In this document: positions 37,947 to 62,223 of the stretch, piece by piece
How positions within the stretch are numbered: the stretch's first letter is position 1
How the letters are laid out: each line of letters begins with the position of its first letter
Source of the DNA: Longimicrobiales bacterium
Lineage (GTDB): Bacteria > Gemmatimonadota > Gemmatimonadetes > Longimicrobiales > Gaopeijiaceae
Assembly (NCBI GenBank): GCA_028278645.1
Contig: JANQDZ010000047.1
Span: 186,001 to 250,000, forward strand
Length of the DNA stretch: 64,000 bases
Direction of reading: 5' to 3'
Made by a program: the position numbers and the translations under genes
The notes under the pieces: model-generated
Database searches by the model: none
What the model was told of the DNA's origin: nothing
Seen by the model: the letters and a program-made list of their open reading frames with translations, nothing else

Positions 37947-37962
37947 GTTTCGCAAGTGAAAA
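37947..37962. promoter_or_regulatory. Candidate activator-binding palindrome upstream of the 2-oxoacid oxidoreductase
   Basis: GTTTCGCAAGTGAAAA matches the GTTTCA-N4-TGAAAC element found twice upstream of the redox operon at 51981 at 12 of 16 positions, with two of the differences in the N4/spacer region. It is centred about 30 bp upstream of the -24 element, closer than usual for a sigma-54 enhancer. Assignment is inference from shared pattern. Confidence 0.45.
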
Positions 37963-37982
37963 AATCCGACCTTTCCTTGGCC

Positions 37983-37997
37983 CGGCATTCTTCTTGC
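37983..37997 (+). promoter_or_regulatory. Candidate sigma-54 (-24/-12) promoter for the 2-oxoacid oxidoreductase operon
   Basis: CGGCATTCTTCTTGC keeps the GGCA and TTGC cores of the consensus TGGCAC-N5-TTGC. The GG (37984-37985) and GC (37996-37997) are separated by exactly 10 nt. Expected transcription start is near 38009. Confidence 0.55.
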
Positions 37998-38157
37998 GCT
38001 TCTGGGGAACCTGAAGGAAAGCTAACTGTCGTCAATTCAACATGTTGGCTCTGGTTCGGCTGTATCGGGCCGCGGAACTTGGGACACATTTTCCCAAGGG
38101 TTGTCCCCCTTCGGCCCGAGCAACGAGTTGGGACTCTAAGAGGACGTTGGGGAAGGT

Positions 38158-39639
38158 ATGGAATCAAAGGTCGCAAAGCTCAAAATCAAGCCAAAACCGT
38201 TCCTGTTTCCGGAGTTCTGCAAAGGGTGCGGTCGGTGCATCGAATCCTGTCGATTCGATTGTATCACAGAAGGCACGGAGATTAACCCGGAGACGGGGCT
38301 GACCCCCGTCAACATCGATCTGGAGAAATGTTCTGGATGTGGCCTCTGTGTGAGCGCTTGTCCCGAGCCTTTCGGCCTGCATCTCAGGACGGTGGACGTC
38401 GAAGAGATCGACAACGATGCGCTGGAGGGTGTGCACAGCTTCCAGGAGATGGTGGATCTTTTCGACAAGGCGGACTATGAGCTGGAAGATCCGTCGGAGC
38501 TCTTTGGTCCCCGGGAGTCTGAGGCTCCTGATCCGGTGGCCATCCCCGATGAATGGCTCCCCCTGGCCCACCATGAACCCCTCGTATTAAAAGGGAACTA
38601 CGCTTCGGCCGTGGGAGCAATCCTGGCCGGCTGCCGCCACGTATACGGTTATCCCATCACACCGTCCACAGAGGGGGCCGAGCTCATGGCGAAGCTTCAG
38701 CCCTTGATGGACGGGGTGTTCTTCCAGGCAGTCAGCGAAGTCGCAACGGTGAACATGATGTACGGCACCGGCGGTGCCGGACTTCCGTCAATGACGTTCA
38801 CTTCATCTCCAGGCTTCAGCCTGATGTTGGAGGGCGTCTCCTACATGGTGGGAGCCGAGGTCCCCGGTGTGTTCGTGAACGTCATGCGAGGCGGGCCGGG
38901 GCTGGGGAACATCGCTCCGGAGCAAGCCGACATAAAACTCGCCTGTCGGGGGCTCGGACACGGAAACAGCCACGCCATCGTGCTCACTCCTTCCACTCCC
39001 CAGGAGATGTTGGATCTGACGATGCTGGCGTTCGACCTCACCTTCAAATACCGGAATCCGGTAGTCATCCTGGGGGACGGATATCTTGGCCAGATGACCG
39101 GTCGAGTGAAGCTCCCCGATCGCCTGAAGAAGCCGGGGATCCCGGAGTGGGCCGTTTATGGGGATCTGGAACACAGAAGGAACCTGATCTGCTCCATCGA
39201 GCTCTCGGAGCCGGTCCAGGAACAACACAACATCCATCTGAATGAGAAGTACGCGGCCATGGCCGCCGAGGAACAAAGGGCCGATCTCTTTCACACCGAC
39301 GACGCAGAGGTCCTCGTTGTCGCCACCAACACGCCGGCCCGGATGGCGAAGGGTGCTGTGCAGGAATTGAGGGACCAGGGCGTTAAGGTGGGGCTCTTCA
39401 GGCCCATCACGGTGTGGCCGTTTCCCATCGACCTCCTGAAACCCGTCCTGGAGCACACCAAACGGATTGTGATGGTGGAAGCCAGTCCCGGACAGCTCGA
39501 AGACGAGCTTCGCCTGGCCCTGAGTAAGGCCGGGATCCAACCGCCCATCATCGACCATGTCCGCCATTACGGAGGGATTTTGCCGCAGCAATCGGAGGTT
39601 GTGGAGAAGGTTCTCGAAGGGGAGGAGGTGGCCCAATGA
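38158..39639 (+). CDS. 2-oxoacid:ferredoxin oxidoreductase, ferredoxin domain fused to alpha subunit
   Basis: This 493-residue protein combines a two-[4Fe-4S] ferredoxin (about 1-75: CKGCGRCIESCRFDCI and CSGCGLCVSACPEP) with a VorB/KorA-type alpha subunit (about 130-490: GNYASAVGAILAGCRHVYGYPITPSTEGAE, PGFSLMLEGVSYMVGAEVPGVFVNVMRGGPGLG). With its partner it would oxidise a 2-oxoacid and CoA to acyl-CoA and CO2, reducing ferredoxin. The order delta-alpha, then beta-gamma compresses the usual four subunits into two genes. The substrate (2-oxoisovalerate-like or 2-oxoglutarate) cannot be settled by eye. Its stop overlaps the next start by 4 nt (ATGA). A candidate sigma-54 promoter lies upstream. 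Confidence 0.9.
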   Translation: MESKVAKLKIKPKPFLFPEFCKGCGRCIESCRFDCITEGTEINPETGLTPVNIDLEKCSGCGLCVSACPEPFGLHLRTVDVEEIDNDALEGVHSFQEMVDLFDKADYELEDPSELFGPRESEAPDPVAIPDEWLPLAHHEPLVLKGNYASAVGAILAGCRHVYGYPITPSTEGAELMAKLQPLMDGVFFQAVSEVATVNMMYGTGGAGLPSMTFTSSPGFSLMLEGVSYMVGAEVPGVFVNVMRGGPGLGNIAPEQADIKLACRGLGHGNSHAIVLTPSTPQEMLDLTMLAFDLTFKYRNPVVILGDGYLGQMTGRVKLPDRLKKPGIPEWAVYGDLEHRRNLICSIELSEPVQEQHNIHLNEKYAAMAAEEQRADLFHTDDAEVLVVATNTPARMAKGAVQELRDQGVKVGLFRPITVWPFPIDLLKPVLEHTKRIVMVEASPGQLEDELRLALSKAGIQPPIIDHVRHYGGILPQQSEVVEKVLEGEEVAQ

Positions 39640-41084
39640 GTGTCTCCACCTTCTACGATAGGTTCGAACGCCATGCCCAGGGTGAGGGTTTGAAGGGCCA
39701 CGCGACACACTACTGCGCGGGGTGCGGACACGGGCTTGCACATAAGTATATGGCGGAAGCCATCGACGAGTTGGGGATCCAGGATCGGACCATCGCTATC
39801 TCCCCGGTCGGGTGTAGCGTGTTCCTCTACTACTACATGGACGTGGGGAACTCACAGGCCGCCCACGGAAGAGCTCCGGTGGTGGGCTTGGGCCACAAGC
39901 TGGCGAACCCCGAGTCCATCGTGATCTCCTACCAGGGAGACGGGGACCTGGCTTCCATTGGCCTGGCTGAAACGTTCCAAGCGGCCCAGGTGGGGTTGCC
40001 GATCTCGGTCATCTTCATCAACAACGCCATTTATGGTATGACCGGTGGCCAGATGGCACCCACCACTCTGATGGGTCAGCAGACCACCACGACTCCTCGG
40101 GGGCGGGAGAGGGTCGCCGGCCTCCCCATCAGGATGGCTGAGATGATCGGTCAAATGGACGGGCCGGTTTATGTGGAACGAGTCGCTTTGTTTGGCGCCA
40201 AACAGCGGGTGAAGGCCAAGAAGGCAATCAAGAAAGCCCTCCAGCTTCAAGTAGAGAACAAAGGGTACTCTTTCGTTGAGGTTCTTTCAGAGTGCCCGAC
40301 CCACCTGAAGATGACGCCCCTGGAGGCCGAGAAGTGGGTGGAAGAGAACATGGTACCGATCTTTCCGCTCGGCGTTCAAAAGGACATCACCGAAGAGATT
40401 ACTCCGGAGCTGGAATTTAAGCCGTTTAAACCGTCCTTCGATGTGGAGGAAGTCAAAGGCCTGATTATCGAGGGGGCTGAGAACGGGGTTGAGCGTTTCG
40501 CTTCGGCCTTCCCCGAGCACATCGCCAAAGACGACATCTCTCTGAAGCTGGCCGGGGCAGGTGGCGACGGAGCCCAAACGGCCGCCCTCCTTCTCACCCG
40601 AATGGCGATCAATGAGGGATTGGATTCCACTCATATCCCGTCTTACGGGCCTGAGTCACGGGGTGGCACCTCGTACGCCGACGTTCGGATCGCCAAGGAA
40701 GAAGTCCTTTCCCCCGCTTCGCCGACCCCGAACATCCTGATCGCGTTTAATGCACCGAGCCTTACGAAATTTGCTCCGACTGTAGCCTCAGGAGGAACCA
40801 TTCTGTACGACAGCTCGGTCATCTCCGATCCTCCGTCGGTCAACGGCGACATCCAGATGTACGGCGTCCCCTTCACGGAGATTGCCACAACCATCGGCCG
40901 ACGGGTCATCAAGAACGTGGTGGCTTTGGGCGCGCTCCAGGCCATGACCGACATCTTCCCGGAGGAGACCTTCCTGGCCGCGATTCGGCAGGCTCTGGCA
41001 GCTAAGTGTGCCATGATCCCCATGAACGAAGAAGCGTTCCAATGGGGGCAGAAGGCCGTGCGGGAGGGAATCGAAGGGGAGTAG
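39636..41084 (+). CDS. 2-oxoacid:ferredoxin oxidoreductase, beta-gamma subunit fusion
   Basis: This 482-residue protein has a thiamine-diphosphate beta subunit (about 1-250) with the Cys-bearing HYCAGCGHG, the ThDP/Mg signature QGDGDLASIGLAE and the following INNAIYGMTGGQMAPTT. It is joined to a gamma subunit (about 300-475) with the acceptor-domain motifs LAGAGGDGAQTAALLLTRMA and SYGPESRGGTSYADVRI. It forms the catalytic core with the alpha protein upstream. CysXXCys in the beta start may bind a cluster. The four-nt overlap indicates translational coupling, and a strong hairpin follows the operon. Confidence 0.92.
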   Translation: MSVSTFYDRFERHAQGEGLKGHATHYCAGCGHGLAHKYMAEAIDELGIQDRTIAISPVGCSVFLYYYMDVGNSQAAHGRAPVVGLGHKLANPESIVISYQGDGDLASIGLAETFQAAQVGLPISVIFINNAIYGMTGGQMAPTTLMGQQTTTTPRGRERVAGLPIRMAEMIGQMDGPVYVERVALFGAKQRVKAKKAIKKALQLQVENKGYSFVEVLSECPTHLKMTPLEAEKWVEENMVPIFPLGVQKDITEEITPELEFKPFKPSFDVEEVKGLIIEGAENGVERFASAFPEHIAKDDISLKLAGAGGDGAQTAALLLTRMAINEGLDSTHIPSYGPESRGGTSYADVRIAKEEVLSPASPTPNILIAFNAPSLTKFAPTVASGGTILYDSSVISDPPSVNGDIQMYGVPFTEIATTIGRRVIKNVVALGALQAMTDIFPEETFLAAIRQALAAKCAMIPMNEEAFQWGQKAVREGIEGE

Positions 41085-41140
41085 GAGAATACGCGGAGGG
41101 GGTCGCAGCCCTCCCTATCCGCGAGAACCAACATGGCGAG

Positions 41141-41162
41141 AGGGGCCGGATCACCGGCCCCT
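41141..41162 (+). terminator. Terminator of the 2-oxoacid oxidoreductase operon
   Basis: A perfect 9-bp stem (AGGGGCCGG at 41141-41149, CCGGCCCCT at 41154-41162) with a 4-nt loop ATCA is followed by CCCTTCTTTTGC. It is placed 57 nt after the stop codon. Confidence 0.8.
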
Positions 41163-50417: not shown

Positions 50418-51812
50418 ATGTCTGAAAAACGAGGGATTCCCTCACCCCAAGCCCCTCTCCGGGTGCTGGATCAAGCCGGCGAGGCCCAATTCTTCGAGAC
50501 CGTTCTCCGGTGTGTCGCCGACGGCGTATTCACGGTCGACACCGAGTGGCGGATCACATCGTTCAACCGAGCCGCCGAGAGAATCACCGGTGTGCCGGTA
50601 GAAAAAGCCATCGGGAAACGATGCTCCGAGGTTTTTCACTCGGATCTGTGTGAACATGCTTGCCCGATTCGGGAGACGTTGGATACCGGATCGGAAGTGA
50701 TCGACCGAGCCGCCCGAATCCTCAATCGGCAAGGCGGCTCCGTTCCCATCAGCGTCAGCAGCGCCATTCTCCGGTCAGAGGACGGGACCCTACTCGGGGC
50801 CGTCGAGACCTTCCGGGATCTCTCTACACTGGAACAGCTGAGGCGGGAGATCAAAAGCCAATGGACCTTCGAAGATATCATTGGAAAGAGCGAGGCTTTC
50901 CAGAAGATCTTCGCAATCCTTCCGGACATCGCCGACAGCGAGAGCACGGTTCTCATCGAAGGACCGAGTGGATCGGGGAAGGAGTTGATAGCTAGGGCGA
51001 CCCACAATCTGAGTCCCCGGAAAAAAGGACCCTACGTGGTGGTGAACTGCGGGACCCTGCCGCCGAACCTGTTCGAGTCGGAGCTGTTCGGATATCTGAA
51101 AGGCGCTTTCACCGACGCCAAGAAGGACAAGCCCGGGCGGATTACCCTGGCCGAAGGGGGAACCCTGTTTCTCGACGAGATCGGTGACCTCCCGCCCGAG
51201 ACCCAGGTGAAGCTTCTACGGCTTCTCCAGGAACGGGAATACCACCCCCTGGGATCGGTGGACACTCACAAAGCGGACGTCCGCGTAGTTGCCGCCACAA
51301 ATCGGGACCTCTCGTCCCTCGTGAGCCAAGGAAAGTTCCGAGACGACCTTTACTTCCGGCTGGCGGTGGTCCGCCTATCCATCCCGCCCCTCTCGGACCG
51401 CAGGCAGGATATCCCATTCCTCATCGACCATTTTATCCAGCGCTTCAACCGTCGCCGGGGGAAACGGATTCAAGGCGTTACGCCCGCGGTCATGGAGGTC
51501 CTCATGAGGCACCCGCTCCCGGGGAATGTGCGGGAGCTGGAAAACATCATCGAGTACTGTTTTGTCCTTTGCCGGAATGGATTCATCGACGTCAGGCACC
51601 TCCCTGACGACCTGAATCCGGAGGCCGAAACGGCCGAAGCCCCCGTCAGCCCGGGGCCCATGGCGCCCCTGCAAGAGAGCGAGGCTGACACGATCCGGCG
51701 GATCCTCGCATCAAACGAGGGGAACAGAGCTCGAACGGCGGAGGATCTCCGTATCAGCCGGACGACCCTCTGGCGGAAGATGAAGAAGCACGGGATAGCG
51801 TTTCACCCGTGA
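50418..51812 (+). CDS. Sigma-54 enhancer-binding protein with Cys-containing PAS domain
   Basis: This 464-residue activator of sigma-54 RNA polymerase has three domains. The PAS domain (about 20-135) contains the Cys cluster in RCSEVFHSDLCEHACPIRETL. The AAA+ core (about 150-385) has Walker A GPSGSGKE (182-189), Walker B GTLFLDEIG (about 251) and NVRELENIIEY near its end. The sigma-contacting loop reads GAFTDA (229-234) instead of GAFTGA, a variant seen in other activators. A Fis-type helix-turn-helix occupies about 425-462 (ARTAEDLRISRTTLWRKMKKH). There is no receiver domain, so sensing is probably through PAS, perhaps redox or Fe-S linked. ATG 50418 has GGAGGTGG upstream. The gene sits directly before a redox operon with a -24/-12 promoter. 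Confidence 0.95.
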   Translation: MSEKRGIPSPQAPLRVLDQAGEAQFFETVLRCVADGVFTVDTEWRITSFNRAAERITGVPVEKAIGKRCSEVFHSDLCEHACPIRETLDTGSEVIDRAARILNRQGGSVPISVSSAILRSEDGTLLGAVETFRDLSTLEQLRREIKSQWTFEDIIGKSEAFQKIFAILPDIADSESTVLIEGPSGSGKELIARATHNLSPRKKGPYVVVNCGTLPPNLFESELFGYLKGAFTDAKKDKPGRITLAEGGTLFLDEIGDLPPETQVKLLRLLQEREYHPLGSVDTHKADVRVVAATNRDLSSLVSQGKFRDDLYFRLAVVRLSIPPLSDRRQDIPFLIDHFIQRFNRRRGKRIQGVTPAVMEVLMRHPLPGNVRELENIIEYCFVLCRNGFIDVRHLPDDLNPEAETAEAPVSPGPMAPLQESEADTIRRILASNEGNRARTAEDLRISRTTLWRKMKKHGIAFHP

Positions 51813-51848
51813 AACGGTGAAACAGTCTTACTGTTTCAGATCTGAAAC
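51800..51848. promoter_or_regulatory. Cluster of GTTTCA/TGAAAC palindromes, candidate enhancer array
   Basis: Three overlapping perfect palindromes: GTTTCACCCGTGAAAC (51800-51815, covering the stop codon of the activator gene), arms TGAAACAGT/ACTGTTTCA around CTT (51818-51838), and GTTTCAGATCTGAAAC (51833-51848). The two GTTTCA-N4-TGAAAC elements are 33 bp apart centre to centre, about three helical turns. They lie about 129 and 96 bp upstream of the -24 element, the normal position for a sigma-54 enhancer. Binding by the adjacent activator is inferred. A terminator role is less likely because no T-run follows. Confidence 0.7.
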
Positions 51849-51980: not shown

Positions 51981-52352
51981 GTGAGAGTCGCAATACCGCG
52001 AATGGGAGAAACCGTGGCACCCTGCTTCGAATACTGTGCCACGATGGCCATCTTCGACGTCGCCGAGTCAGGCGTCGTCGACCAGGTCGACTTTCCCCTT
52101 CAGAGCCGGGAGCCTTTTGACCGGGTCCGCCTTCTGAGAGACCAGGAGGTGGATACCGTGATCTGTGGCGGAATCCAGGCCTTCTATGAGGACCTGCTGA
52201 AGGCCAGCGGACTCCAGGTGATTTCATGGGTCGAAGGGACCGTGGACGACCTCCTGGCCCTCTTCATCAGAGGGGAGCTCGTAGCGGGTACTGAGCTCCC
52301 CCTGGATTGCGGGCCGGACTTCTTTCCGATGAAAAGAATGACGGAGCACTGA
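51981..52352 (+). CDS. NifX/NifB C-terminal-like protein
   Basis: This 123-residue protein of the dinitrogenase iron-molybdenum cofactor family begins RVAIPRMGETVAPCFEYCATMAIFDV and contains VDTVICGGIQAFYEDLLKASGLQVISWVEGTVDDLL. Cys14 and Cys18 or nearby residues might bind a metal or cluster. The start is GTG 51981, preceded by GGAGG; a TTG at 51951 is upstream of the predicted transcription start and is rejected. It is the first gene of the sigma-54-type operon, 3 nt before the next start. The role is unknown; metal delivery or cluster handling for the following Fe-S proteins is inference. Confidence 0.85.
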   Translation: MRVAIPRMGETVAPCFEYCATMAIFDVAESGVVDQVDFPLQSREPFDRVRLLRDQEVDTVICGGIQAFYEDLLKASGLQVISWVEGTVDDLLALFIRGELVAGTELPLDCGPDFFPMKRMTEH

Positions 52353-52355
52353 CCT

Positions 52356-53744
52356 TTGGCGACCGCGCAGAAATACAGCTACAACGTCGAGCAGAAGGGG
52401 TTGGAGGGTTCGGACAAACCCCGGCGATTCCTGGAAGCCTTCTCGGCCATCCTCCGCCACGGGAACTACCACGTTGCCCTGGACACCTTCTCACGCCTGA
52501 GCGCCAAGTGCGGGAGGTGTGCAGCCTCCTGCCAACTCTACGAAGCGACCGGTGCAGAAGAGGACATACCATGCCACCGGTCGGAACTCCTCCTCCGGGT
52601 ATTTCGGCGGTACTTCACCAACGCCGGGGTTCTTAAAGCCAAGCTGTTCGGAGGGTTCACGCTCACCGACGAATACGTGGACGAGATGGCCGAATCCTTT
52701 TACCGGTGCACGGCTTGCCGTCGCTGTAAGGCCACCTGCCCGGTGGGGATCGACCATGCCCTCGTCACCCACCTGGCAAGGTGGGTTTTGGCTGAGATCG
52801 ACGTCATCCCCAGGGCCCTTCTGGTCTCGGTGAGAGAACAGTTGGAGGGCGATTCAGGAAACACCTCGGCCATCCCCGTTCCCGCGTTAAAAGACACCTG
52901 TGAGTTCCTGGAAGAGGAGCTGGACGATCTCTACAACGTAGACATCAAGTTCCCCTTCGATGAGGAGGGGGCGGAGTTCGTGTTCTTCCCGGCTGTCTCG
53001 GACTTCATCATGGAGGCGGACACCCTCATGGGTAACGCCGCTGTGATGCACACCTCTGGGGGGTCATGGACCATCGGGACCGGGAACTTCGACGGGATCA
53101 ACTACGGCCTGTTCTACTCCGACCGGATGATGGAGAAGATCGTCGGAAACGTCCTGGACGAGGTAAAGCGGCTGAAGGCCAAGAAGATCCTGATCGGAGA
53201 ATGTGGTCATGCTACCCGATCGGCTTGGTATATCCCCACTTTTGGTGGACCTGACGCCCCCGATGTGGTGAACTGTCTCGAGTATGCTTACGAACAGTTC
53301 AAAAAAGGGAAAATCCCCCTCAAAGACGAGAAGATTCCGGAGCGGGTCACGTACCACGACCCCTGCAACATCGCGCGCTCCGGGAAGATCGTCGACCAGC
53401 CCAGAGAGATCCTGAGAGCGATTTGCGCCGACTACGTGGAGATGACACCGGGCGGCACGGAGAACTACTGCTGCGGCGGAGGCGGCGGCACGGTATCCAT
53501 CGACGAGATTCGCGAGTTTAGGACCGGTCCGCTGGGGCAGCGGAAGGCCGACCAGATCCGAGCCACCGGGGCTCAGATCGTCATCTCTCCCTGCGCTAAC
53601 TGCAAGAAACAGCTGAAAGAGCTTTGCCAGGACAACGGCATGGAGGACGTGGAGGTCATGGGCCTTCACGACCTCCTCCTCCGCGTTCTCGACTTCGGGG
53701 AATGGGAAAAAGCCCCGGAGGCCGAGGACGTGGCTGCGGACTGA
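52356..53744 (+). CDS. HdrD/DsrK-type Fe-S protein (CCG domain)
   Basis: This 462-residue protein resembles DsrK/TmcB/HdrD. N-terminal Cys groups suited to two [4Fe-4S] clusters are CGRCAASC (C52, C55, C59) and CTACRRCKATCPVG (C118, C121, C124, C128). The C-terminal part has CCG-type motifs: HDPCNIARSGK (about 330), NYCCGGGGG (about 371) and SPCANCKKQLKEL (about 410), which in HdrD-like proteins hold a catalytic non-cubane cluster for disulfide chemistry. It is expected to be a soluble partner of the membrane cytochrome encoded next. The start is TTG 52356, with GGAG about 9 nt upstream. It resembles the second HdrD-type gene at 60613 but lacks that gene's long N-terminal extension. Confidence 0.9.
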   Translation: MATAQKYSYNVEQKGLEGSDKPRRFLEAFSAILRHGNYHVALDTFSRLSAKCGRCAASCQLYEATGAEEDIPCHRSELLLRVFRRYFTNAGVLKAKLFGGFTLTDEYVDEMAESFYRCTACRRCKATCPVGIDHALVTHLARWVLAEIDVIPRALLVSVREQLEGDSGNTSAIPVPALKDTCEFLEEELDDLYNVDIKFPFDEEGAEFVFFPAVSDFIMEADTLMGNAAVMHTSGGSWTIGTGNFDGINYGLFYSDRMMEKIVGNVLDEVKRLKAKKILIGECGHATRSAWYIPTFGGPDAPDVVNCLEYAYEQFKKGKIPLKDEKIPERVTYHDPCNIARSGKIVDQPREILRAICADYVEMTPGGTENYCCGGGGGTVSIDEIREFRTGPLGQRKADQIRATGAQIVISPCANCKKQLKELCQDNGMEDVEVMGLHDLLLRVLDFGEWEKAPEAEDVAAD

Positions 53745-53771
53745 TCGAAACGGAAGGACGGAAGAATCGAT

Positions 53772-54473
53772 ATGGATGTTTGGCTTCAATGGGCCATGGG
53801 GCCCCTCTTCTGGACGGCGATGGCCTTTATGGTCCTGGGGCTGGTCCGTCATGTGGGCCTAACGGTATGGGGAAGCTTCCGGGCCTACCGGCGCGCGGGG
53901 GACAAGAGATTCCCCGTCGGCAAACTCGTGGGGAGCACTCTCCACTGGCTCGTTCCCGTGGGTAAGGTTCGGAACCGAGGCTTTTTCAGCCTCACCACGG
54001 TTCTCTTCCATGCTGGGGTCATACTGGTACCCCTCTTCCTGGCCGGGCACATCCAACTCTGGCGAGCCGGGGTTGGAATCACCTGGCCCGCTCTCCCGAA
54101 TGGCGTGGCTACCACGCTCACCTGGGTGGTGATCGCGACGGCATTCGCCCTGGTCGTCCAGCGGGCCGGGGCCAAGGACAGCCGGGCCCTCAGCCGGTTC
54201 CAGGACTATGCCCTTCCGCTACTCATCGTGATCCCCTTTCTGACAGGGTTCCTCGTGATGCACCCCGCCTGGAATCCCTTTGGTAGGGACCCTGTTCTGC
54301 TGGTGCATGTGCTGAGCGCGGACCTGCTGATCTTCCTGGTTCCTCTCACCAAGCTCAGTCACATGATCCTCATGCCTTTTACCCAGCTCGTGTCTGAGCT
54401 CGCCTGGCACTTCCCTGAGGATGCCGGGAGTCGAGTTGGCGTCACCCTGGGCAAAGAAAACGAGCCAATTTGA
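53772..54473 (+). CDS. NarI/DsrM-type membrane cytochrome b
   Basis: This 233-residue integral membrane protein is of the nitrate-reductase gamma/HmcE/TmcC/DsrM type. It has about five hydrophobic segments, at about 8-30, 72-95, 108-128, 148-168 and 178-200. His residues in or near the helices (TVLFHAGVILVPLFLAGH; LLVHVLSADLLIF; KLSHMIL) are suitable heme b ligands. It should pass electrons between menaquinone and the HdrD-like protein encoded upstream. It is separated from that gene by 27 nt and overlaps the region before the next start (stop 54471-54473, ATG 54476). Confidence 0.85.
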   Translation: MDVWLQWAMGPLFWTAMAFMVLGLVRHVGLTVWGSFRAYRRAGDKRFPVGKLVGSTLHWLVPVGKVRNRGFFSLTTVLFHAGVILVPLFLAGHIQLWRAGVGITWPALPNGVATTLTWVVIATAFALVVQRAGAKDSRALSRFQDYALPLLIVIPFLTGFLVMHPAWNPFGRDPVLLVHVLSADLLIFLVPLTKLSHMILMPFTQLVSELAWHFPEDAGSRVGVTLGKENEPI

Positions 54474-54475
54474 CC

Positions 54476-55246
54476 ATGTCTGTCGCGATCTTAATCGACG
54501 TTACCAAGTGTGTGGGCTGTGAGGAGTGTGTTCTCGCCTGCAAGGAGGAAAACGATCTGGGCCCAGACAGGCTCCGGCCCGGTCAGCAGGCGGTGGACGG
54601 ACTCTCTGCCACCCGGTATTCCACCATTCTCCGCTACCCCGACGATCATTTTGTGCGGCAGCAATGTCGCCACTGCCTTGAACCTGCCTGCGTTAGCGCC
54701 TGCCTGGTGGGGGCCATGCGAAAAACCCCTGAGGGACCGGTCGTCTACGATTCCGATCTCTGCATGGGCTGTCGGTATTGCCTCGTGGCCTGTCCCTACG
54801 GGATCCCCCGATACGAATGGGACGAAGCGGCTCCCCTGGTGAGGAAGTGCACGCTCTGTAGCCACCGCATCGAAGAGGGAAGGGTACCGGCATGTGTGGA
54901 GGCCTGCCCGGAGGACGCTCTTCTCTTCGGGGATCGGGCCGCACTCCTGTCCGAAGCCCGCCGCAGAATCGCGGAAAACCCAGGCAGCTATCTGGATCAC
55001 GTCTATGGTGAGAAAGAGGTGGGTGGCACGTCCGTGCTTTACCTATCCGACATCTCCCTGGGGTTCTTGGGGTGGGCGGAAAACCTGGGTGAGGGAGGCC
55101 TACCGCATCTGACTCACGCAGCCCTGAAGAAGGTTCCAGGGATTGTACTGGGAATGGGTAGCCTCATGGGAGGGATCTACTGGGTCATCAACCGGAGAAT
55201 GAAACTGGCCGCCCGGTCGGCAGAGGGAGGGCAGGGTCATGAGTAA
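54476..55246 (+). CDS. Four-cluster ferredoxin subunit (HybA/DsrO/HmcB type) with C-terminal membrane anchor
   Basis: This 256-residue protein has four Cys groups typical of four [4Fe-4S] clusters: CVGCEECVLACKEE, CRHCLEPACVSACLVGA, CMGCRYCLVACPYG and CTLCSHRIEEGRVPACVEACPEDA. A C-terminal hydrophobic segment (about 220-242, VPGIVLGMGSLMGGIYWVINRR) anchors it. HybA, DsrO and related subunits normally have a Tat signal; none is present here, because the first cluster motif begins by residue 13. The cellular side is therefore open. Its stop overlaps the start of the NrfD-type gene by 8 nt. It is an electron wire between the membrane partner and a cytochrome or quinone. Confidence 0.9.
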   Translation: MSVAILIDVTKCVGCEECVLACKEENDLGPDRLRPGQQAVDGLSATRYSTILRYPDDHFVRQQCRHCLEPACVSACLVGAMRKTPEGPVVYDSDLCMGCRYCLVACPYGIPRYEWDEAAPLVRKCTLCSHRIEEGRVPACVEACPEDALLFGDRAALLSEARRRIAENPGSYLDHVYGEKEVGGTSVLYLSDISLGFLGWAENLGEGGLPHLTHAALKKVPGIVLGMGSLMGGIYWVINRRMKLAARSAEGGQGHE

Positions 55247-57200
55247 CCGACTAAGGGCACTCAAAACCGTCCTCTGGGGCTTGGTTGGGGTTTTGGTTTC
55301 AGTATCGGTGGTTCGGTTTGTTCATGGTTTGGGGGCGGTGACGAATCTCTCTGACGCAGCTCCCTGGGGTCTCTGGATCGGCTTCGACGTGATGTCGGGT
55401 GTCGCCCTGGCGGCCGGCGGCTTCGTTCTGGCCGGGATCGTCTACATTTTCGGCTTGGAGCGGTATCGCCCCTTTGTGCGGGCGGCGATCCTGACGGCCC
55501 TGCTGGGATATGCCGCCGTCGCCGTGGGCCTCATCTACGACCTGGGGCTGCCTTGGCGGATTTGGCACCCCATGGTGAACTGGCAGTACCATTCGGTCCT
55601 CTTCGAAGTGGCCGCCTGCGTCATGCTGTACCTCACGGTGTTGACCCTGGAATTCCTGCCAGTGGTCCTGGAGCATCGGTTCTTCCAGGGTGCCTTTTTC
55701 CGGAAGGTGCTCAAAGCGTTGAAGAAGGTCACGATTCCGCTGGTGATCGCCGGGATCGTGCTCTCCACCCTCCATCAGTCGTCCCTGGGGTCGCTATTCC
55801 TCATTACTCCGTTCCGGCTCCATCCCCTCTGGTACTCGCCCATCATCTACGTCCTCTTCTTCATTTCGGCCGTGGGCCTGGGGCTGATGACCGTGGTGCT
55901 GGAATCCCTGTTCTCCAACTACTTCCTGGACCACAAGCTTCATGGAAGGGAGATCTCAGGACTGGGGTTGGCGGCCTCCGTCGTCCTTTGGGTTTATGTC
56001 GCCCTGAGGGTCGGGGATCTCTTGGTTCGAGGGGTCCTTCCATCGGCGTTGGATGGCTCCTGGCAGAGTGGGCTTTTTGTTGCGGAGTTGGCCTTCAGCG
56101 CGGTCATCCCTGCCGTCCTCATGCTCCTAAAACCCATCAGGCAGAGTATCGCCGGTGTGGGTGTGGCGGCTTCCATGGTTGTCCTCGGGATGATCTGGCA
56201 TCGGCTGGACGTCTCTATCGTGGCCTTCGCCCGACCTGAAGGAATGGGCTACCTCCCGAGCTGGGAGGAGTTCGCTGTGAGCTTTGGAATCGTCGCCGGA
56301 GGAATCCTCGTCTTCCTCTTCTTCGTCGAAAATCTGAACGTGTTCGACGACGTGAGAGGCCACCCGCCCGAGGAGGATCCTGGTTTCCAAGCGGAGGCCA
56401 CCGTCTCCTTCCTGCCAGGCCCCCTGGGCTTCCCCCGGCGCTACTCCGTAGCGGCACTGTCTGGGGGGATCCTGGCACTCCCCTTCCTGCCCGTTGGTGG
56501 GGTCCAGCCCACACCGTCTCCGGTTCAAGGTCCCAGGAGCGTGGCGGCTTACGTCAGCCCGGCTTCCAACGGCGAGACCCGTGGACTGGCATTGGTGGGT
56601 TCAGGGGACCTGCTCCCGATCCGGGTCCTGATGCTCGACGCGAATCGAGACGGCGATGTGGTTCTCTTCGACCACGACGATCACGCCGCCCGCCTCGGGG
56701 GGGAACAGTCCTGTGAGACCTGTCACCACCTGACCAAACCCCTGGACAAAAACACGTCCTGCTTCGAGTGCCACACGGACATGTACGAGCCCCGGTCGGT
56801 ATTCGACCATGACGTTCACGCGGCTCAACTCGGAGGTTCGGAGGGGTGCGTTCAGTGTCACGGCGAGGGTTCGGAGGTGAAGAGCTACGAGACCGTCACC
56901 GAATGCTCGGAATGTCATCGGAACGAAATCTCAACACGTGCCTTCATCAACCCCCCGGAGGCTAGATGGGGAAACGCCGTCGGATACATGGACGCCATGC
57001 ACTCCCTCTGCGTCGAGTGCCATACCAGGGAGGCTCTCACAGCCCCGGCTCATAATCCCGAGAACCTCAACCAGTGCATGACATGCCACGATGTGGACTG
57101 GCGTGAGGACGTTCGAAGGCTGATGCCGCACCTGGCCGGTATGGAAAGGGTCACTGCGGGCCCCCGCCCCGCAGCTGCCCAGTTGGGAGCCGGTGGATGA
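55239..57200 (+). CDS. HybB/NrfD-type quinone-interacting membrane protein fused to hexaheme cytochrome c
   Basis: This 653-residue protein has an N-terminal HybB/NrfD integral-membrane domain (about 1-375, ten hydrophobic segments, with the HybB-like STLHQSSLGSLFLI). A further membrane segment lies near 410-425. The C-terminal cytochrome domain (about 465-630) has six CxxCH heme c sites: CETCH, CFECH, CVQCH, CSECH, CVECH and CMTCH. His-rich FDHDDHAARLGG and FDHDVHAAQLGG precede two of them, as in class III cytochromes, where they supply distal ligands. In DsrMKJOP, Hmc and Qrc systems the NrfD-type protein and the multiheme cytochrome are separate. The heme domain should face the periplasm. 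No separate cytochrome gene is nearby. Confidence 0.92.
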   Translation: MSNRLRALKTVLWGLVGVLVSVSVVRFVHGLGAVTNLSDAAPWGLWIGFDVMSGVALAAGGFVLAGIVYIFGLERYRPFVRAAILTALLGYAAVAVGLIYDLGLPWRIWHPMVNWQYHSVLFEVAACVMLYLTVLTLEFLPVVLEHRFFQGAFFRKVLKALKKVTIPLVIAGIVLSTLHQSSLGSLFLITPFRLHPLWYSPIIYVLFFISAVGLGLMTVVLESLFSNYFLDHKLHGREISGLGLAASVVLWVYVALRVGDLLVRGVLPSALDGSWQSGLFVAELAFSAVIPAVLMLLKPIRQSIAGVGVAASMVVLGMIWHRLDVSIVAFARPEGMGYLPSWEEFAVSFGIVAGGILVFLFFVENLNVFDDVRGHPPEEDPGFQAEATVSFLPGPLGFPRRYSVAALSGGILALPFLPVGGVQPTPSPVQGPRSVAAYVSPASNGETRGLALVGSGDLLPIRVLMLDANRDGDVVLFDHDDHAARLGGEQSCETCHHLTKPLDKNTSCFECHTDMYEPRSVFDHDVHAAQLGGSEGCVQCHGEGSEVKSYETVTECSECHRNEISTRAFINPPEARWGNAVGYMDAMHSLCVECHTREALTAPAHNPENLNQCMTCHDVDWREDVRRLMPHLAGMERVTAGPRPAAAQLGAGG

Positions 57201-58363
57201 CCCCTAACCGACTCGGTCACATCGAGGAGATCCAGGAATGGCTCAGGGCTCACCTGTTCGACCAGGTCCCCGTAGCCATCAGCATCATCGACAGGAACTA
57301 CAACATCGTCGATGCAAATCCTCGGTTCGAGAAGAGCTACGGCAGATGGCGGGGACGCCCCTGCTACGAGGTCTACAAAGATCGCCGTGCGCCGTGCACG
57401 GAATGCGCGGCGCTGAAGACGTTCGAGGACGGGAAAGTCCGGATCAGGGAGGAGAAGGGGAGAATCGAAAACGGGAATCCTATGGACTACCTGGTTCATA
57501 TGGTCCCTGTTCGTGGCCCGCTGGGGAAGATCCGGTTCATCGTGGAGATGTCCACCGACATCACAGAAGTGAAAAAGCTGGAGAGAGAGAAGCGGGAAGC
57601 TGAGAGGCTAGCAGCCGTCGGTGAAACCGTCGCCGGTATTGCCCACGGGATCAAGAACGTCCTCATGGGCTTGGAGGGCGGGATGTATGCTGTGAACACG
57701 GGTATCGAGCTTGCCGACGATGCACGGATCGCCCGTGGCTGGATGACCCTCGAGGAGAACGTCAAGAGAATCTCGGAGTTCGTTAAAGAGTTCCTGGATT
57801 TCGCCAAAGGCCGGAAAACCAAGGTAGCCCCTGTTGATCCCAACCTTCCTGCACAGGAGGTCTCGGATCTTTTCCGAGAACGGGCCGCCCAGGCCGGCGT
57901 CAGGTTGGAGGTCGACCTGGAACAGGGGCTCCGGGAAGCCGCTCTGGATCAAGACGCCATTCACACCTGCCTCTCCAACCTGGTCTCCAACGCCATCGAC
58001 GCTTGTATGGTCGCCGAACAAACCCGGGAATTCGTGGTGACCCTCAGTTCCCGGGAGGCCAACGGAGTTCTGATCTACGAGGTGACGGACAACGGGTTGG
58101 GCATGGACTACGAGATCTCCAAGAAGGTCTTCTCGAAGTTCTTCACCACCAAAGGATCGGACCGGGGGACGGGCCTGGGCCTCCTGACGACCAAACGCAT
58201 GATTCATCAGCACGGAGGCCAGATCTCCTTCACCTCGACGGAGGGGGAGGGATCAACTTTCCGGATCGAGCTGCCCAGGGGATCGCTTCCGATCCCTGAA
58301 TCCGAGAACGACATACAAGAAGTCGAAGTCTGCTCCTTAAGGACTGAAGAGGTGACGCCATGA
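57197..58363 (+). CDS. PAS histidine kinase
   Basis: This 388-residue soluble-looking kinase has a PAS domain (about 15-110) with the Cys cluster GRPCYEVYKDRRAPCTECAALKTF, similar in spacing to the one in the sigma-54 activator. A coiled linker follows, then a phospho-acceptor His in VAGIAHGIKNVLMGLE and the ATPase with NLVSNAIDAC (N box), DNGLGM (G1) and GTGLGL (G2). There are no membrane segments. Its start overlaps the preceding cytochrome gene stop by 4 nt, and its stop overlaps the first response regulator. It is most simply a sensor of redox state or ligand for the operon's own electron-transfer complex. Confidence 0.93.
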   Translation: MTPNRLGHIEEIQEWLRAHLFDQVPVAISIIDRNYNIVDANPRFEKSYGRWRGRPCYEVYKDRRAPCTECAALKTFEDGKVRIREEKGRIENGNPMDYLVHMVPVRGPLGKIRFIVEMSTDITEVKKLEREKREAERLAAVGETVAGIAHGIKNVLMGLEGGMYAVNTGIELADDARIARGWMTLEENVKRISEFVKEFLDFAKGRKTKVAPVDPNLPAQEVSDLFRERAAQAGVRLEVDLEQGLREAALDQDAIHTCLSNLVSNAIDACMVAEQTREFVVTLSSREANGVLIYEVTDNGLGMDYEISKKVFSKFFTTKGSDRGTGLGLLTTKRMIHQHGGQISFTSTEGEGSTFRIELPRGSLPIPESENDIQEVEVCSLRTEEVTP

Positions 58364-58887
58364 CCCGACCCCAGGACAAGACGGTTCTGGTGGTGGACGA
58401 CGAGCCGAACGTGAGGCAATACCTGGCCCAGATCCTCCTGGATGCCGGATTTAACGTGGTTCAGGCAGGGGACGGAGCGGAGGCTCTGGAGATCATTCGG
58501 GAGCAGCCTCCCGACTTCATCTCCCTGGACCTGGTCATGCCCCGGAAGAGCGGGCACAAGCTGCTCTATGAGCTCCGGAAAGATCGGAAGCTGTCTCAAA
58601 TCCCTGTCCTCATCGTTACGGCCCACGCTCAGGACGAATTGGGCCAAGGCGATCTGAGGGACATCATGGACAACCGGGTCCTGTCTGGACCTGGAGTCTA
58701 CCTGGAAAAGCCGGTGAAACCCCTGAGCTACGTTCGGGCGGTTCAGCGTGCACTCGGGATCGAAGAAACGCCGGAGGACGAAGACAGGATCTCCCTTCAG
58801 GAGGAGCTCCAAAACGCCCTTCCGGATGCCGAGCCCCACGCCCTTCGCCGGGCCCTGGAGGCTCTCAAAAAACAAGGAACACTGTGA
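58360..58887 (+). CDS. Receiver-domain response regulator
   Basis: This 175-residue protein has a receiver domain (about 1-125: VLVVDDEPNVRQYLAQIL, phospho-Asp in FISLDLVMPRKSG, LIVTAHAQDE, LEKPVKP) and a short C-terminal helical tail (about 130-175). It has no DNA-binding or enzymatic output domain. Overlaps of 4 nt on both sides place it tightly between the kinase and the second receiver protein. It may relay phosphate or act by protein contact, perhaps on the PAS activator. Confidence 0.9.
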   Translation: MTRPQDKTVLVVDDEPNVRQYLAQILLDAGFNVVQAGDGAEALEIIREQPPDFISLDLVMPRKSGHKLLYELRKDRKLSQIPVLIVTAHAQDELGQGDLRDIMDNRVLSGPGVYLEKPVKPLSYVRAVQRALGIEETPEDEDRISLQEELQNALPDAEPHALRRALEALKKQGTL

Positions 58888-59282
58888 TGAAGAAAAAAAT
58901 CCTCATCGTAGATGATGAGCCGGCAATCGTGAGTTACCTGGAGATGGTTCTCCAGGACCAGGGGTACGATACCGTTACTGCCGGGAATGGGAATGAGGCC
59001 TTGGACGCCGCCCGGGCAGGTAAACCAGACCTGGTCACCCTGGACATCACCATGCCCGAGGCCTCCGGTACACGGTTCTATAAAGAGTTGAGGACGGACC
59101 CGGAGCTCTCCGAAATTCCGGTGATTATCGTGACCGCGGTCACGGGCCTTGGCGGCGACAAGTACGCCTACGAGAAGTTCATCAGCAACCGGAGTCTGGT
59201 TCCGGCACCCGAAGGCTTCTTCCCCAAGCCCATCGACCGTGAGGCTTTCATAGAGGCGGTGAACGGACTTCTGGCAGCCTAG
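58884..59282 (+). CDS. Receiver-only response regulator
   Basis: This 132-residue protein is a receiver domain with almost nothing else: KILIVDDEPAIVSYLEMVL, phospho-Asp in LVTLDITMPEASG, IIVTAVTGLGG and FPKPIDREAF. It is the last gene of the operon and is related to its neighbour. The absence of an output domain suggests a phosphorelay sink or an interaction partner. Confidence 0.9.
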   Translation: MMKKKILIVDDEPAIVSYLEMVLQDQGYDTVTAGNGNEALDAARAGKPDLVTLDITMPEASGTRFYKELRTDPELSEIPVIIVTAVTGLGGDKYAYEKFISNRSLVPAPEGFFPKPIDREAFIEAVNGLLAA

Positions 59283-59511
59283 CCCGGCTGGTATGGAGGG
59301 GAGGCCGGCCACGTCTCAGGTTCCGGGCCGGGGATAGGACCGGGACGGACCGTTGGGCCCGGCTCCAGGGTAGGGCCCGGAAGGACCGGTCTCCCCGCCG
59401 TAAAAAAAGCTCCCTCACCAGGGTCCCCTGACCAAGGAACCCTTTGGCTCGGCGCATTCCTTGGCCATGGGGCTCATCTGGCCCGACCGTTCCTACCGGG
59501 TTGGGTCAGGA

Positions 59512-59597
59512 TTTCCCCATTTAACATTCCAGAATTAATTAAACTTGAAGTAATACGGTTTCGGGAGGCCCTTTTTTTGGTCCTGGTTTCCCCATTT
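59512..59597. repeat. Direct repeat TTTCCCCATTT upstream of dsrMK
   Basis: The 11-mer TTTCCCCATTT occurs at 59512-59522 and 59587-59597, 75 bp apart (about seven helical turns), centred about 108 and 33 bp upstream of the -24 element. It could be an activator-binding pair. It does not match the GTTTCA-N4-TGAAAC elements. Confidence 0.45.
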
Positions 59598-59623
59598 GGT
59601 TCTTTCAGAAAAAGTGGTCGAAA

Positions 59624-59638
59624 TGGCCCAATAATTGC
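59624..59638 (+). promoter_or_regulatory. Candidate sigma-54 (-24/-12) promoter of dsrMK
   Basis: TGGCCCAATAATTGC keeps TGGC and TTGC, with GG (59625-59626) and GC (59637-59638) separated by exactly 10 nt. Expected transcription start is near 59650, giving a 40-nt leader to ATG 59690. Confidence 0.7.
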
Positions 59639-59689
59639 CATCGTTCTTAAGGATTTTGGGCGTTTTCGTTGTTACAACAGAGAGGACCA

Positions 59690-60616
59690 ATGTCCGCCTC
59701 AACACTGATTCTGCTTTCGTACGTTTTGCTGGCCATATTTGCGGTGTTTTTTGTCCTCAAATCCCTGAAGATGGCCCGGATGCCGGTCCACGTCCGCTGG
59801 GAATTGGCTCCGGTCCCCCACGAGAAGGGGAGGGGACACTACGGGGGTTCATACCTGGAGGATGCGGAGTGGTGGACCAAGCCCCGCGAAAAGGACCACG
59901 TGGCTGAAGCCACCTACATGTTCAAGGAGATTCTCTTCCTGAAGGCCCTCTTCGAACACAAGCGGAGCCTTTGGTGGTTCTCCTTCCCCTTCCACTTCGG
60001 AATGTACCTCCTCATCGGCGCCGTCGTTCTGCTGGCTCTTGGCGCCCTGGGTTCCGTCACCGGATTGGTGGGCACGGACATGTGGCTCTTCGCCACGGGA
60101 TACCCCCTTCTGGCTGGGGTCGGATACGCCCTGGGACTCCTGGGGGCCGTGGGCCTCTTCCTGACGCGGATGGTGGAGAAAGGCATGGCAAACTCCACGA
60201 CCTACGCCACCTACTTCAACGTTCTACTGCTCGGATCGCTGTTCGGTACCGGGCTGTGGGCCTCTTTCTCCGTGTCGGATTTCAGCGGACAGACCTTGGG
60301 TTTCATTGGTGCCCTCTTCACGGCTGACATGTCCGTGGAGCTAGCCGGGATCCTGAAGGCACATTTCCTCCTGGCTTTTGCATTTCTAGCCTACCTGCCC
60401 TTCACCCAGATGATGCATTTCGTGGCGAAGTACTTCACCTACCACGAGATCCGCTGGGATGACGAACCGGTTGAGCCGGGCGGGAAGATGGAGAAAGAGA
60501 TTTTGGAGCTGCTCGGGCAATCACCAACCTGGGCTGGGCCCCACGTCAGGGCCGACGGGAAGAAGACTTGGGTGGACATCGCCACCGACACCGGCGCGCA
60601 GGAGGCCGAAAAATGA
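59690..60616 (+). CDS. dsrM: DsrM-type membrane cytochrome b
   Basis: This 308-residue membrane protein matches DsrM/HmeC better than NarI. A first helix (about 3-25, LILLSYVLLAIFAVFFVL) is followed by a cytoplasmic segment with EWWTKPREKDHVAEATYMFKEILFLKALFEHKR. Helices with likely heme b ligands come next (FPFHFGMYLLIGAVV; KAHFLLAFAFLAYLPFTQMMHFVAKYF). The C-terminus is soluble and acidic. It should exchange electrons with menaquinone and deliver them to, or receive them from, DsrK. ATG 59690 has AGAGGA upstream; the in-frame TTG 21 nt earlier is disfavoured. Its stop overlaps the DsrK start (ATGA). Confidence 0.85.
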   Translation: MSASTLILLSYVLLAIFAVFFVLKSLKMARMPVHVRWELAPVPHEKGRGHYGGSYLEDAEWWTKPREKDHVAEATYMFKEILFLKALFEHKRSLWWFSFPFHFGMYLLIGAVVLLALGALGSVTGLVGTDMWLFATGYPLLAGVGYALGLLGAVGLFLTRMVEKGMANSTTYATYFNVLLLGSLFGTGLWASFSVSDFSGQTLGFIGALFTADMSVELAGILKAHFLLAFAFLAYLPFTQMMHFVAKYFTYHEIRWDDEPVEPGGKMEKEILELLGQSPTWAGPHVRADGKKTWVDIATDTGAQEAEK

Positions 60617-62223
60617 GCGACAAGGTTCGCGTGAAGGATATTGGGAAGAAAGAACTCCCCATGCTGTCTGAGGTTCGGCCGGAGGAGTTGATTCCGCTTC
60701 CGCCGCCGTACGACAAGGTCGAAGACCTGCCGGGATTTAAAGAGATCACCGACGAAAAGAAGGAGAGGGTGGTCTGCAACCTGGACGGGGTCATCGCTTC
60801 CGCTATGCCCCATCCGGAAAGCCCTGAGGAAGAACAGAAGTACGTCGACATGTTCGTGGACGGGCTGAAAAAGCTCCTGTCCAAGGAGAACAACTGGACC
60901 TTCCTCCAGCCCCTGACCTTGTCCCTCGAGTACTGTATCGGGTGTCAGACCTGCGCAGACGCCTGCCACGTATTCGAGGCTACGGGTGGAAAAGAGATCT
61001 ATCGGCCTACCTACCGGTCGGAGGTGTGGCGCCGGTTGGTGAACAAGTACGTGAAGCCCGGCGGAAAGCTGATCGCCCCGCTGAAGGGCGCAGACATCGA
61101 CCTGAACTGGACGACGATCACGCGCCTTTATGAGCTCACATACCGCTGCAACCTCTGCCGCCGCTGCGCCCAGGTTTGCCCCGTCGGTGTGGACAACGGC
61201 CTCATCGCCCACGAGCTGCGGAAGCTCTTCAGCCAGGAGCTGGGCTGGGCCCCCACCGAGCTCCACGACAAAGGCACCGAGCTGCAGCTGGAAGTGGGCT
61301 CCTCCACCGGCATGAACTCCGTCGTGGTTAAAGACAACATCGAGTTCATCGATGAGGACATGACAGACGAGACGGGGATCGAGACCGAAACCCCCTTCGA
61401 CAAGGAGGACGCGGACGTTCTCCTCATCCACAACGCTGGTGAGATGCTGGCCTGGCCCGAGAACCCCGGCGCCTTCGCCATCATCCTCAACGCTGCCGGG
61501 ATCGACTGGACCCTCTCGTCGGAAGAGGTTGGTTACGACGGTGTGAACTACGGCCTCTTTTACGACGACGTTCAGCTTGCCAGGATCGCCATCAAACACT
61601 CCCAGGCTGCCCAGAAGCTGAACGCCAAGCGTGTGGTAATGGGCGAGTGCGGTCACCAGCACAAAGCCATGGTGACCATCGCGGACCGAGTGCTGGTGGG
61701 GGACCTGGCGGTGAAGCGGGAGAGCTTCCTGCCCCTCCTCGAGGAGATCGTCTTCAGCGGCAAGATCGAGTTCGACCCGTCGAAGAACGACTTCCCGGTT
61801 ACCCTCCATGACCCCTGCAACATCGTCAGGAATCTGGGGATCGTGGAACCGCAGCGTCGGATTCTTCGCTATCTGTGCCCGCAGTTCCGGGAGATGACTC
61901 CCCACGGCGTGGACAACTACTGCTGCGGCGGCGGTTCCGGATTCGCCATCATGTCCGGGAACAACTACGAGGACTGGAGGAACAACGTAAGCGGTCGTGT
62001 GAAGTTCAAGCAGATCATCGACGCTTTCCAGGACCAGCCGGGACCGGAGGTGAAGAAGTACCTCTGCGCCCCCTGCTCCAACTGTAAGGGTCAGATTCGG
62101 GATCTCCTGAACTACTACGGCGCCCTGGATAAGAGCGGCATCACCTACGGCGGTCTGGTGGAGCTCATCGTGAACGCCATGGTTGACGTGAAAGAGCCCT
62201 TCATCAAGTGGGAGATGTTCTAG
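60613..62223 (+). CDS. dsrK: DsrK-type Fe-S protein (CCG domain)
   Basis: This 536-residue protein has an N-terminal extension (about 1-100) typical of DsrK. Two ferredoxin-type cluster sites follow (C108, C111, C114, C118 in CIGCQTCADACH; C179, C182, C185, C189 in CNLCRRCAQVCPVG). The HdrD-like catalytic part has HDPCNIVRN (about 400), NYCCGGGSG (about 436) and CAPCSNCKGQI (about 485), and it ends GGLVELIVNAMVDVKEPFIKWEMF-like, a recognisable DsrK C-terminus. In sulfite-reducing organisms DsrK is thought to reduce the DsrC trisulfide; no dsrC is seen here, so the partner may differ. A strong terminator follows. Confidence 0.88.
   Translation: MSDKVRVKDIGKKELPMLSEVRPEELIPLPPPYDKVEDLPGFKEITDEKKERVVCNLDGVIASAMPHPESPEEEQKYVDMFVDGLKKLLSKENNWTFLQPLTLSLEYCIGCQTCADACHVFEATGGKEIYRPTYRSEVWRRLVNKYVKPGGKLIAPLKGADIDLNWTTITRLYELTYRCNLCRRCAQVCPVGVDNGLIAHELRKLFSQELGWAPTELHDKGTELQLEVGSSTGMNSVVVKDNIEFIDEDMTDETGIETETPFDKEDADVLLIHNAGEMLAWPENPGAFAIILNAAGIDWTLSSEEVGYDGVNYGLFYDDVQLARIAIKHSQAAQKLNAKRVVMGECGHQHKAMVTIADRVLVGDLAVKRESFLPLLEEIVFSGKIEFDPSKNDFPVTLHDPCNIVRNLGIVEPQRRILRYLCPQFREMTPHGVDNYCCGGGSGFAIMSGNNYEDWRNNVSGRVKFKQIIDAFQDQPGPEVKKYLCAPCSNCKGQIRDLLNYYGALDKSGITYGGLVELIVNAMVDVKEPFIKWEMF

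Follow-up and report, generated by a model that had tools for sequence, protein, structure and literature searches.

Predicted sigma-54 control of multi-cytochrome membrane redox complexes is known from Desulfovibrionales. Kazakov et al. (2015) have predicted that DVU3142, a one-component sigma-54 activator, acts on the adjacent ohc operon, and the predicted sigma-54 promoters and activator sites of this pair are conserved among relatives (PMC4641369; this and all other papers given by PMC number are cited from excerpts). Ohc has been grouped with the Hmc and Tmc complexes (PMC10504309). Here we describe a 64,000-nucleotide stretch of DNA from a Longimicrobiales bacterium (the window; G000:C19:186001-250000, from a 4.9-Mb metagenome-assembled genome, MAG), in which three -24/-12 sites stand ahead of redox operons: P1 (37983) ahead of a 2-oxoacid:ferredoxin oxidoreductase (OFOR), P2 (51935) ahead of an operon encoding a complex with an HdrD-type subunit, and P3 (59624) ahead of dsrMK-like genes. 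A dedicated switch protein encoded next to P2 probably turns on the membrane electron-transfer complex. Gene content and conservation make it fairly probable that activator, P2 and complex form a module of their own and that P1 and P3 are separate sigma-54 promoters.

The preliminary description of this DNA knew of no described system with such a combination. The principle, an adjacent sigma-54 activator for a complex of this kind, is already known, and the DVU3142-ohc pair is a predicted case; the lineage, the complex, the site and the gene set differ here. DVU3142/ohcBAC of Desulfovibrio vulgaris is alike in that a one-component sigma-54 activator lies beside a multi-cytochrome membrane redox complex. 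It is unlike in that ohc is divergently transcribed and Ohc has an octaheme cytochrome, and the excerpt mentions for ohc neither an HdrD-type subunit nor a FeMo-co-domain gene, kinase or receivers (PMC4641369). In the same organism, the sigma-54 activator DVU2394 has been assigned to an "energy metabolism" operon, DVU2405-DVU2399 (PMC4641369). DVU2394 is a two-component activator, whereas the one described here is one-component. We take DVU2405-DVU2399 to be hdrABC-floxABCD/adh, with an Hdr presumably of the soluble HdrABC type and not a membrane HdrD complex.

The Desulfovibrio Hmc complex resembles the one in the window in its iron-sulfur, NrfD, cytochrome b and HdrD-type subunits and its multiheme cytochrome c; HmcA has 16 hemes (PMC4215793), whereas the cytochrome here has six CxxCH motifs and forms one protein with the NrfD subunit. 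Hmc has been proposed to carry electrons from cytoplasmic ferredoxin to the periplasm, and Tmc, which lacks the NrfD protein present in Hmc, from a periplasmic cytochrome toward sulfite reduction, perhaps to DsrC (PMC4215793). DsrMK and DsrMKJOP are alike in that both the HdrD subunit and the protein starting at 60568 match DsrK best in NCBIfam, and forms with DsrMK only have been described (PMC10504309). The window proteins are unlike them in scoring below the DsrK cut-off; DsrK, DsrM, DsrO and DsrP proteins that do exceed their cut-offs are encoded on contig C42, next to dsrAB. Among open-licence PMC papers none describing this combination was found, and a term search of a 2025 survey of sigma-54 regulons met none of the terms Gemmatimonad-, Acidobacteri- and Hdr (PMC12316311). 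With the window, predicted sigma-54 control of multi-cytochrome complexes reaches beyond Desulfovibrionales, to a lineage labelled Gemmatimonadota and a MAG labelled Acidobacteria, and a defined candidate activator site becomes available for direct testing.

The HdrD operon, its promoter and its activator

The three sites, P1 (CGGCATTCTTCTTGC), P2 (TGGTCCATGCCTTGC) and P3 (TGGCCCAATAATTGC), were found as previously described, each with GG-N10-GC and TTGC and each ahead of a redox operon, the start codons lying 175, 46 and 66 bp downstream. The first genes are that of the 2-oxoacid oxidoreductase at P1, a FeMo-co-domain gene heading the HdrD operon at P2, and dsrM at P3. Sites were scored on a 12-point scale with a listing cut-off of at least 8, and chance levels were taken from shuffled upstream sequences (300, 600 or 2000 shuffles, as given with each test). 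By score alone, all three sites are no better than chance. The window holds 92 sites scoring at least 8, and such a site occurs in seven of 27 hand-picked gene upstreams of 200 bp (the P1-P3 genes included) where about 3.9 are expected from density; two other upstreams outscore P1, P2 and P3, at 11497 minus (score 10) and 63173 minus (score 11). Matches in the window to TGGCAC-N5-TTGC with at most two mismatches are not above chance (38 vs 44.5 expected). Genome-wide consensus enrichment was rejected as uninformative promoter evidence, the reversed-pattern control being commoner (177+179 vs 75+72 matches with at most one mismatch). Conservation lifts P2 and P3 above chance, and the support for P1 is moderate, weaker than for P2 and P3.

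P2 (51935..51949, plus strand) is the predicted promoter of the HdrD operon. Orthologs of its HdrD subunit, at about 70% identity or more, occur in G000, in G001 and G002 of the same genus, in G044, G247 and G110, and in the named Acidobacteria MAG L052. HdrD matches are rare, with six in 78 relatives at E<=1e-40 (DsrK paralogs and the own genome counted) and four in 395 genomes of the phylum at E<=1e-130 (the own genome counted). P2 and P3 were compared among genomes by distance to the start codon, because MAFFT alignments of their upstream regions misplace the core in L052, G021 and G036. All five readable orthologous loci with the FeMo-co-domain gene (G000, G001, G044, G247 and L052) have a GG-N10-GC site 40-52 bp before its start codon. 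An equal site at the same distance arises by chance at frequencies of 0.003, 0.013, 0.003 and 0.001 in the four divergent loci (2000 shuffles), with position window and scores fixed post hoc on data already seen. These comparisons give strong support to a predicted sigma-54 promoter ahead of the HdrD operon.

Upstream of P2 lies a pair of palindromes, the candidate upstream activator sequence (UAS). Copy A (GTTTCACCCGTGAAAC, 51800..51815) matches at 12/12 positions and overlaps the stop codon of the activator gene, and copy B (GTTTCAGATCTGAAAC, 51833..51848), also an exact match, follows 33 bp from it with a TGAAACA half-site between the two. The GTTTCA-N4-TGAAAC copies start 181 and 148 bp ahead of the start codon of the P2 gene in G000. 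The spacing of the pair is 33 bp in G000 and G001 and 32 bp in G247 and L052, the latter with a GTTGC variant; the match is reached by 0, 0, 5, 0 and 4 of 300 shuffles in G000, G001, G044, G247 and L052. Exact GTTTC-N6-GAAAC occurs 10 times in the 4.9-Mb genome, twice at P2. Of the eight copies elsewhere, that in L091 alone is accompanied by a score-9 site within 220 bp, a site without TTGC.

The activator gene (50418..51812, plus strand) directly precedes P2, as noted earlier. It encodes a one-component protein with a PAS domain, an AAA+ domain with a GAFTDA loop and a Fis-type helix-turn-helix (HTH) domain (Pfam PAS, Sigma54_activat and HTH_8, with an alignment of four orthologs), and it has the features of a bacterial enhancer-binding protein, i.e., the sigma-54 AAA+ domain with Walker motifs, a GAFTGA-type loop and the HTH. 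The GAFTDA loop and the PAS cysteines Cys69, Cys78 and Cys82 are invariant in the four orthologs; the GAFTDA variant is listed for DVU2106 too (PMC4641369). The gene adjoins the operon in G000, G247 and L052, and in G044 as well, where it is cut by the contig end. In G001 the activator ends contig C114 and the operon begins contig C94. This arrangement supports the adjacent activator as the candidate regulator of the HdrD operon. By eye, a Cys-x2/3-Cys motif is common to the PAS domains of the activator and of two kinases (57197-58363 and L053 6700-8151); it could be a common redox sensor.

The operon (51981-59282, all genes on the plus strand) begins with a Nitro_FeMo-Co domain protein (51981..52352; PF02579, 8e-8), followed by an HdrD/DsrK/HmcF/TmcB-like iron-sulfur subunit with a CCG domain (52356..53744; DsrK 272.6 bits against a cut-off of 400, TmcB 193.6/735, HmcF 185.3/750). 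The next gene encodes a TmcC/HmcE-like membrane subunit, a cytochrome b by family (53772..54473; NCBIfam TmcC 125.9/240, HmcE 114.8/275), that had no Pfam match. An HmcB-like iron-sulfur subunit (54470..55246; 275.6/420) and an HmcC/NrfD-like membrane subunit with a C-terminal cytochrome c come next (55239..57200; HmcC 303.5/550, Pfam NrfD and Cytochrom_CIII), the cytochrome part holding six CxxCH motifs by motif count. HmcB-, HmcC-, HmcE- and HmcF-like subunits are encoded together, all scoring below their NCBIfam equivalog cut-offs. No gene for a separate 16-heme HmcA was found within the operon, to which that search was confined, and the NrfD domain, lacking in Tmc, is present. By its domain and family matches, the operon encodes an Hmc-like transmembrane redox complex in which NrfD subunit and hexaheme cytochrome are a single fused protein. 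Among solved structures, HdrD has one weak relative, 9ojn_A (9e-12), and the DsrK-like protein has none at E<=1e-5. Domain searches identified the last three genes as a PAS histidine kinase (57197..58363), a stand-alone DVU0259-like receiver (58360..58887) and a second stand-alone receiver (58884..59282); no DNA-binding domain was matched in these by domain and family profile searches.

In G044, contig C32 (L064 5870-15559) carries a diverged paralogous HdrD operon (HdrD 53% identical) with two sigma-54 activators (48% identity; PAS by eye), a longer FeMo-co-domain protein and, 56 bp ahead of HdrD, a GG-N10-GC/TTGC site, which repeats the layout of activators, FeMo-co-domain gene and sigma-54 site. 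In the window, a second Nitro_FeMo-Co domain protein (44529-44990) lies beside a Cys/Met-metabolism pyridoxal phosphate enzyme and is syntenic in G001.

The promoters of the dsrMK-like and 2-oxoacid oxidoreductase genes

P3 (59624..59638, plus strand) is a predicted promoter ahead of genes for a DsrM-like cytochrome b (59690..60616, plus; Pfam Nitrate_red_gam, no NCBIfam match) and a DsrK-like subunit (60568..62223, plus; NCBIfam DsrK 336.5 bits, below the cut-off of 400). These genes are paralogs, because the proteins of the dsrAB-linked set on C42 (DsrK, DsrM, DsrO and DsrP) score above their cut-offs. P3 is conserved in four of seven DsrK orthologs as TGGCCC-N5-TTGC (G000, G001, G021 and G036), 66-111 bp from dsrM. 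As the best site per 250-bp upstream it was reached by 3.2%, 2.2%, 0.2% and 0 of 600 shuffles in these four genomes. It was not found in the dsrM upstreams of G044, G247 and G219. In G219 no site scores above 4; the sites of G044 (score 8, at 48 bp, reached by 18% of shuffles) and G247 (score 9, at 85 bp, reached by 9%) both lack TTGC. A candidate upstream activator region (59502..59550) consists of TGGGTCAGGATTTCCCCA followed by TTAAC..TTAATTAA; it is unlike the P2 palindrome, and its blocks are conserved in G000, G001 and G021 and weak in G036. A sigma-54 promoter ahead of dsrMK is strongly supported as a prediction by this conservation.

P1 (37983..37997, plus strand) is a probable promoter of the 2-oxoacid oxidoreductase, whose genes encode a ferredoxin domain with the alpha subunit (VorB-like; 38158..39639, plus; PRK07119 403.2 bits, cut-off 399) and, by domain and family searches, fused beta and gamma subunits (39636..41084, plus). 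Out of 15 OFOR loci, 14 were scanned, G310 being left out as no start motif was found. P1 keeps its distance of 174-176 bp from the start in G000, G001 and G036 (3/14 scanned loci), and in G036 the well-aligned block starts at about the -24 element. In G021 the OFOR upstream is partly readable (192 bp of poor sequence) and has a score-7 site at 174 bp. The three genomes G000, G001 and G036 also share a second GG-N10-GC site, at 111-113 bp, and P1 is therefore the least certain of the three; a sigma-54 promoter ahead of the oxidoreductase has moderate support from the conserved distance. The P1 leader was also considered as an RNA element and rejected: no Rfam match reached the gathering threshold in the window, and its folding compared with shuffles gave z values of -0.35 (G000) and 0.34 (G001), no improvement over them, and of -2.06 (G036, slightly better). 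Conservation of the promoter motifs in relatives, one of the points on which the preliminary description had staked its reading, holds for P2 in all five readable loci and for P3 in four of seven, but for P1 in only three of the 14 scanned.

The same description had reported related palindromes at two of the three sites. P2 has two exact copies, but the copy at P1 (37947-37962) is imperfect and not conserved, with 10/12 in G000 (reached by 5/300 shuffles), 8/12 in G001 (212/300) and none in G036. At P3 the GTTTCA-type palindrome stays at the chance level of 8/12 in G000 and G001 and is lacking in G021 and G036, so that it exceeds chance in none of the four loci.

One switch or several

The mechanism that we propose starts from the gene content, the conservation of promoter and palindromes and the linkage of activator and operon, all directly observed. 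The PAS-AAA+-Fis protein would sense a cytoplasmic signal, perhaps the redox state through its three PAS cysteines, bind the palindrome pair where its own gene ends and switch on sigma-54 polymerase at P2, the -24 element of which lies about 110 bp past the centre of the pair. The resulting Hmc-like complex would join a cytoplasmic HdrD/DsrK-like thiol-disulfide site, via cytochrome b and NrfD, to the periplasmic hexaheme cytochrome, with subunit topology and electron direction assumed. The kinase and the two receivers at the operon end, without DNA-binding output, would probably tune the complex and not transcription. The genome has one rpoN copy (by profile matches) and 20 matches to sigma-54 activator domains, 16 nearly complete and four weak and partial; P1 and P3 would most likely be served by others of these 16 activators.

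Several details weigh against this scheme. P2 has T instead of C after GG in G000 and G001 and reads ATGC instead of TTGC in G247. G044 has one clear palindrome copy (10/12), the other being unclear, and the L052 palindromes are GTTGC..GCAAC-like and score 9 and 8 of 12. The upstream region of G002 is unreadable as the contig ends at the start codon, and the P2 loci are not fully independent (HdrD of G001 is 93% identical). G110, which keeps the HdrD, cytochrome b, iron-sulfur and NrfD genes without activator or FeMo-co-domain gene beside HdrD, has no site at 40-52 bp. It does, however, have a score-9 GG-N10-GC/TTGC site 140 bp ahead of HdrD, a score that 7% of 300 shuffles reach, and for this reason it was ruled out as a clean negative control for P2. 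P1 scores only 8/12 in G000, as high as 27% of 300 shuffles come. Ten of the 14 scanned OFOR loci lack it at its place; among these, G121 has a weaker site of score 7 at 172 bp, and G238 one of score 10 at 293 bp.

It is possible, although doubtful, that P1 and P3 share another activator acting via TGGG(A/T)CA..CCCA-like sites. The inverted repeat TGGGACACATTTTCCCA (38078-38098) in the P1 leader is conserved in G001 and G036, and the similar TGGGTCAGGATTTCCCCA (59502-59519) upstream of P3 is conserved in G001 and G021. The two make up two of the four window matches of one regular expression and are a possible shared operator, and for six of the 16 activators both G021 and G036 contain a reciprocal best hit. 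However, the two repeats differ by 1 bp in spacing, one is downstream of its promoter and the other upstream, and the repeat is not seen before dsrM in G036; in addition, the motif was noticed post hoc in the window, and a second regular expression matches six window places.

A single activator (50418-51812) driving P1, P2 and P3 and coupling ferredoxin production to its outlets, the idea of one master sensor first put forward for this DNA, is corrected by the comparisons and looks distinctly unlikely. The three sites do lie within 22 kb, the P1 palindrome of G000 reaches 10/12 (5/300 shuffles), and in G001 activator and oxidoreductase share one contig. However, P3 is kept in G021 and G036, and P1 in G036, where searches found neither an activator ortholog at E<=1e-90 in either genome nor a reciprocal best hit among the 10 activators of each; these MAGs are 92% and 88% complete, and the activator is likely absent from both. 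The activator palindrome is found at P2 in five of five loci, at P3 in none of four beyond chance and at P1 weakly in G000 only out of three, and the conserved blocks upstream of P3 in G000, G001 and G021 are of another kind. Only some 20 bp separate the P1 palindrome from the -24 element, less than is usual for sigma-54 activator sites. Chance -24/-12 matches in a GC-rich genome, with the operons using sigma-70-type promoters, would fit the site counts of window and genome that do not rise above controls (including 7/27 upstreams vs about 3.9) and the P1 score so often reached by shuffles, but this is highly improbable given the position and core of P2 and P3 conserved in diverged upstreams, the activator gene beside P2 and the rpoN gene.

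A receiver fusion and further sigma-54-like sites

Just past the window, L053 4788-6575 (G000:C19:250788-252575) encodes an HdrD/HmcF-like subunit that carries a DVU0259-type receiver as a fused domain; a PAS kinase (L053 6700-8151) and a receiver come next. The same fusion occurs in G001 and G002. By eye, the aspartate, threonine and lysine of the fused receiver are in place in G000, G001 and G002. We take these to be the expected phosphorylation-site residues. The fusion of HdrD to an apparently intact receiver domain hints that such receivers have the complex itself as their target. Respiratory complexes may, on this view, be under direct two-component control, which, if so, would give a testable role to receivers without output domains in such operons. 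Going further, electron flow through several HdrD-type membrane complexes of these dsrAB-carrying Gemmatimonadota might be set at two levels, by their own sigma-54 promoters with cysteine-PAS activators, and by cysteine-PAS kinases phosphorylating receivers that act on the complex. We regard this as rather unlikely; if true, phosphorylation would gate cytoplasmic disulfide reduction.

Further sigma-54-like sites lie near the end of the window. TGGCACGGAGTTGGCA (63253..63268, minus strand), which the preliminary description did not list, precedes the HTH_17/MerR-type gene 62331-63173 and is conserved in G001 and G002, and a GG-N10-GC site at 63352-63367 (plus) is conserved in G000, G001 and G002. 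Both lie where the HTH_17 gene and a macrodomain-like gene (by eye) diverge from each other; the latter starts at 63506 and precedes the HmcE/HdrD-receiver genes. Elsewhere in the window, a score-10 sigma-54-like site, TGGTACTCCCCTTGCT (11600-11615, minus strand), stands 118 bp before the gene 9044-11497.

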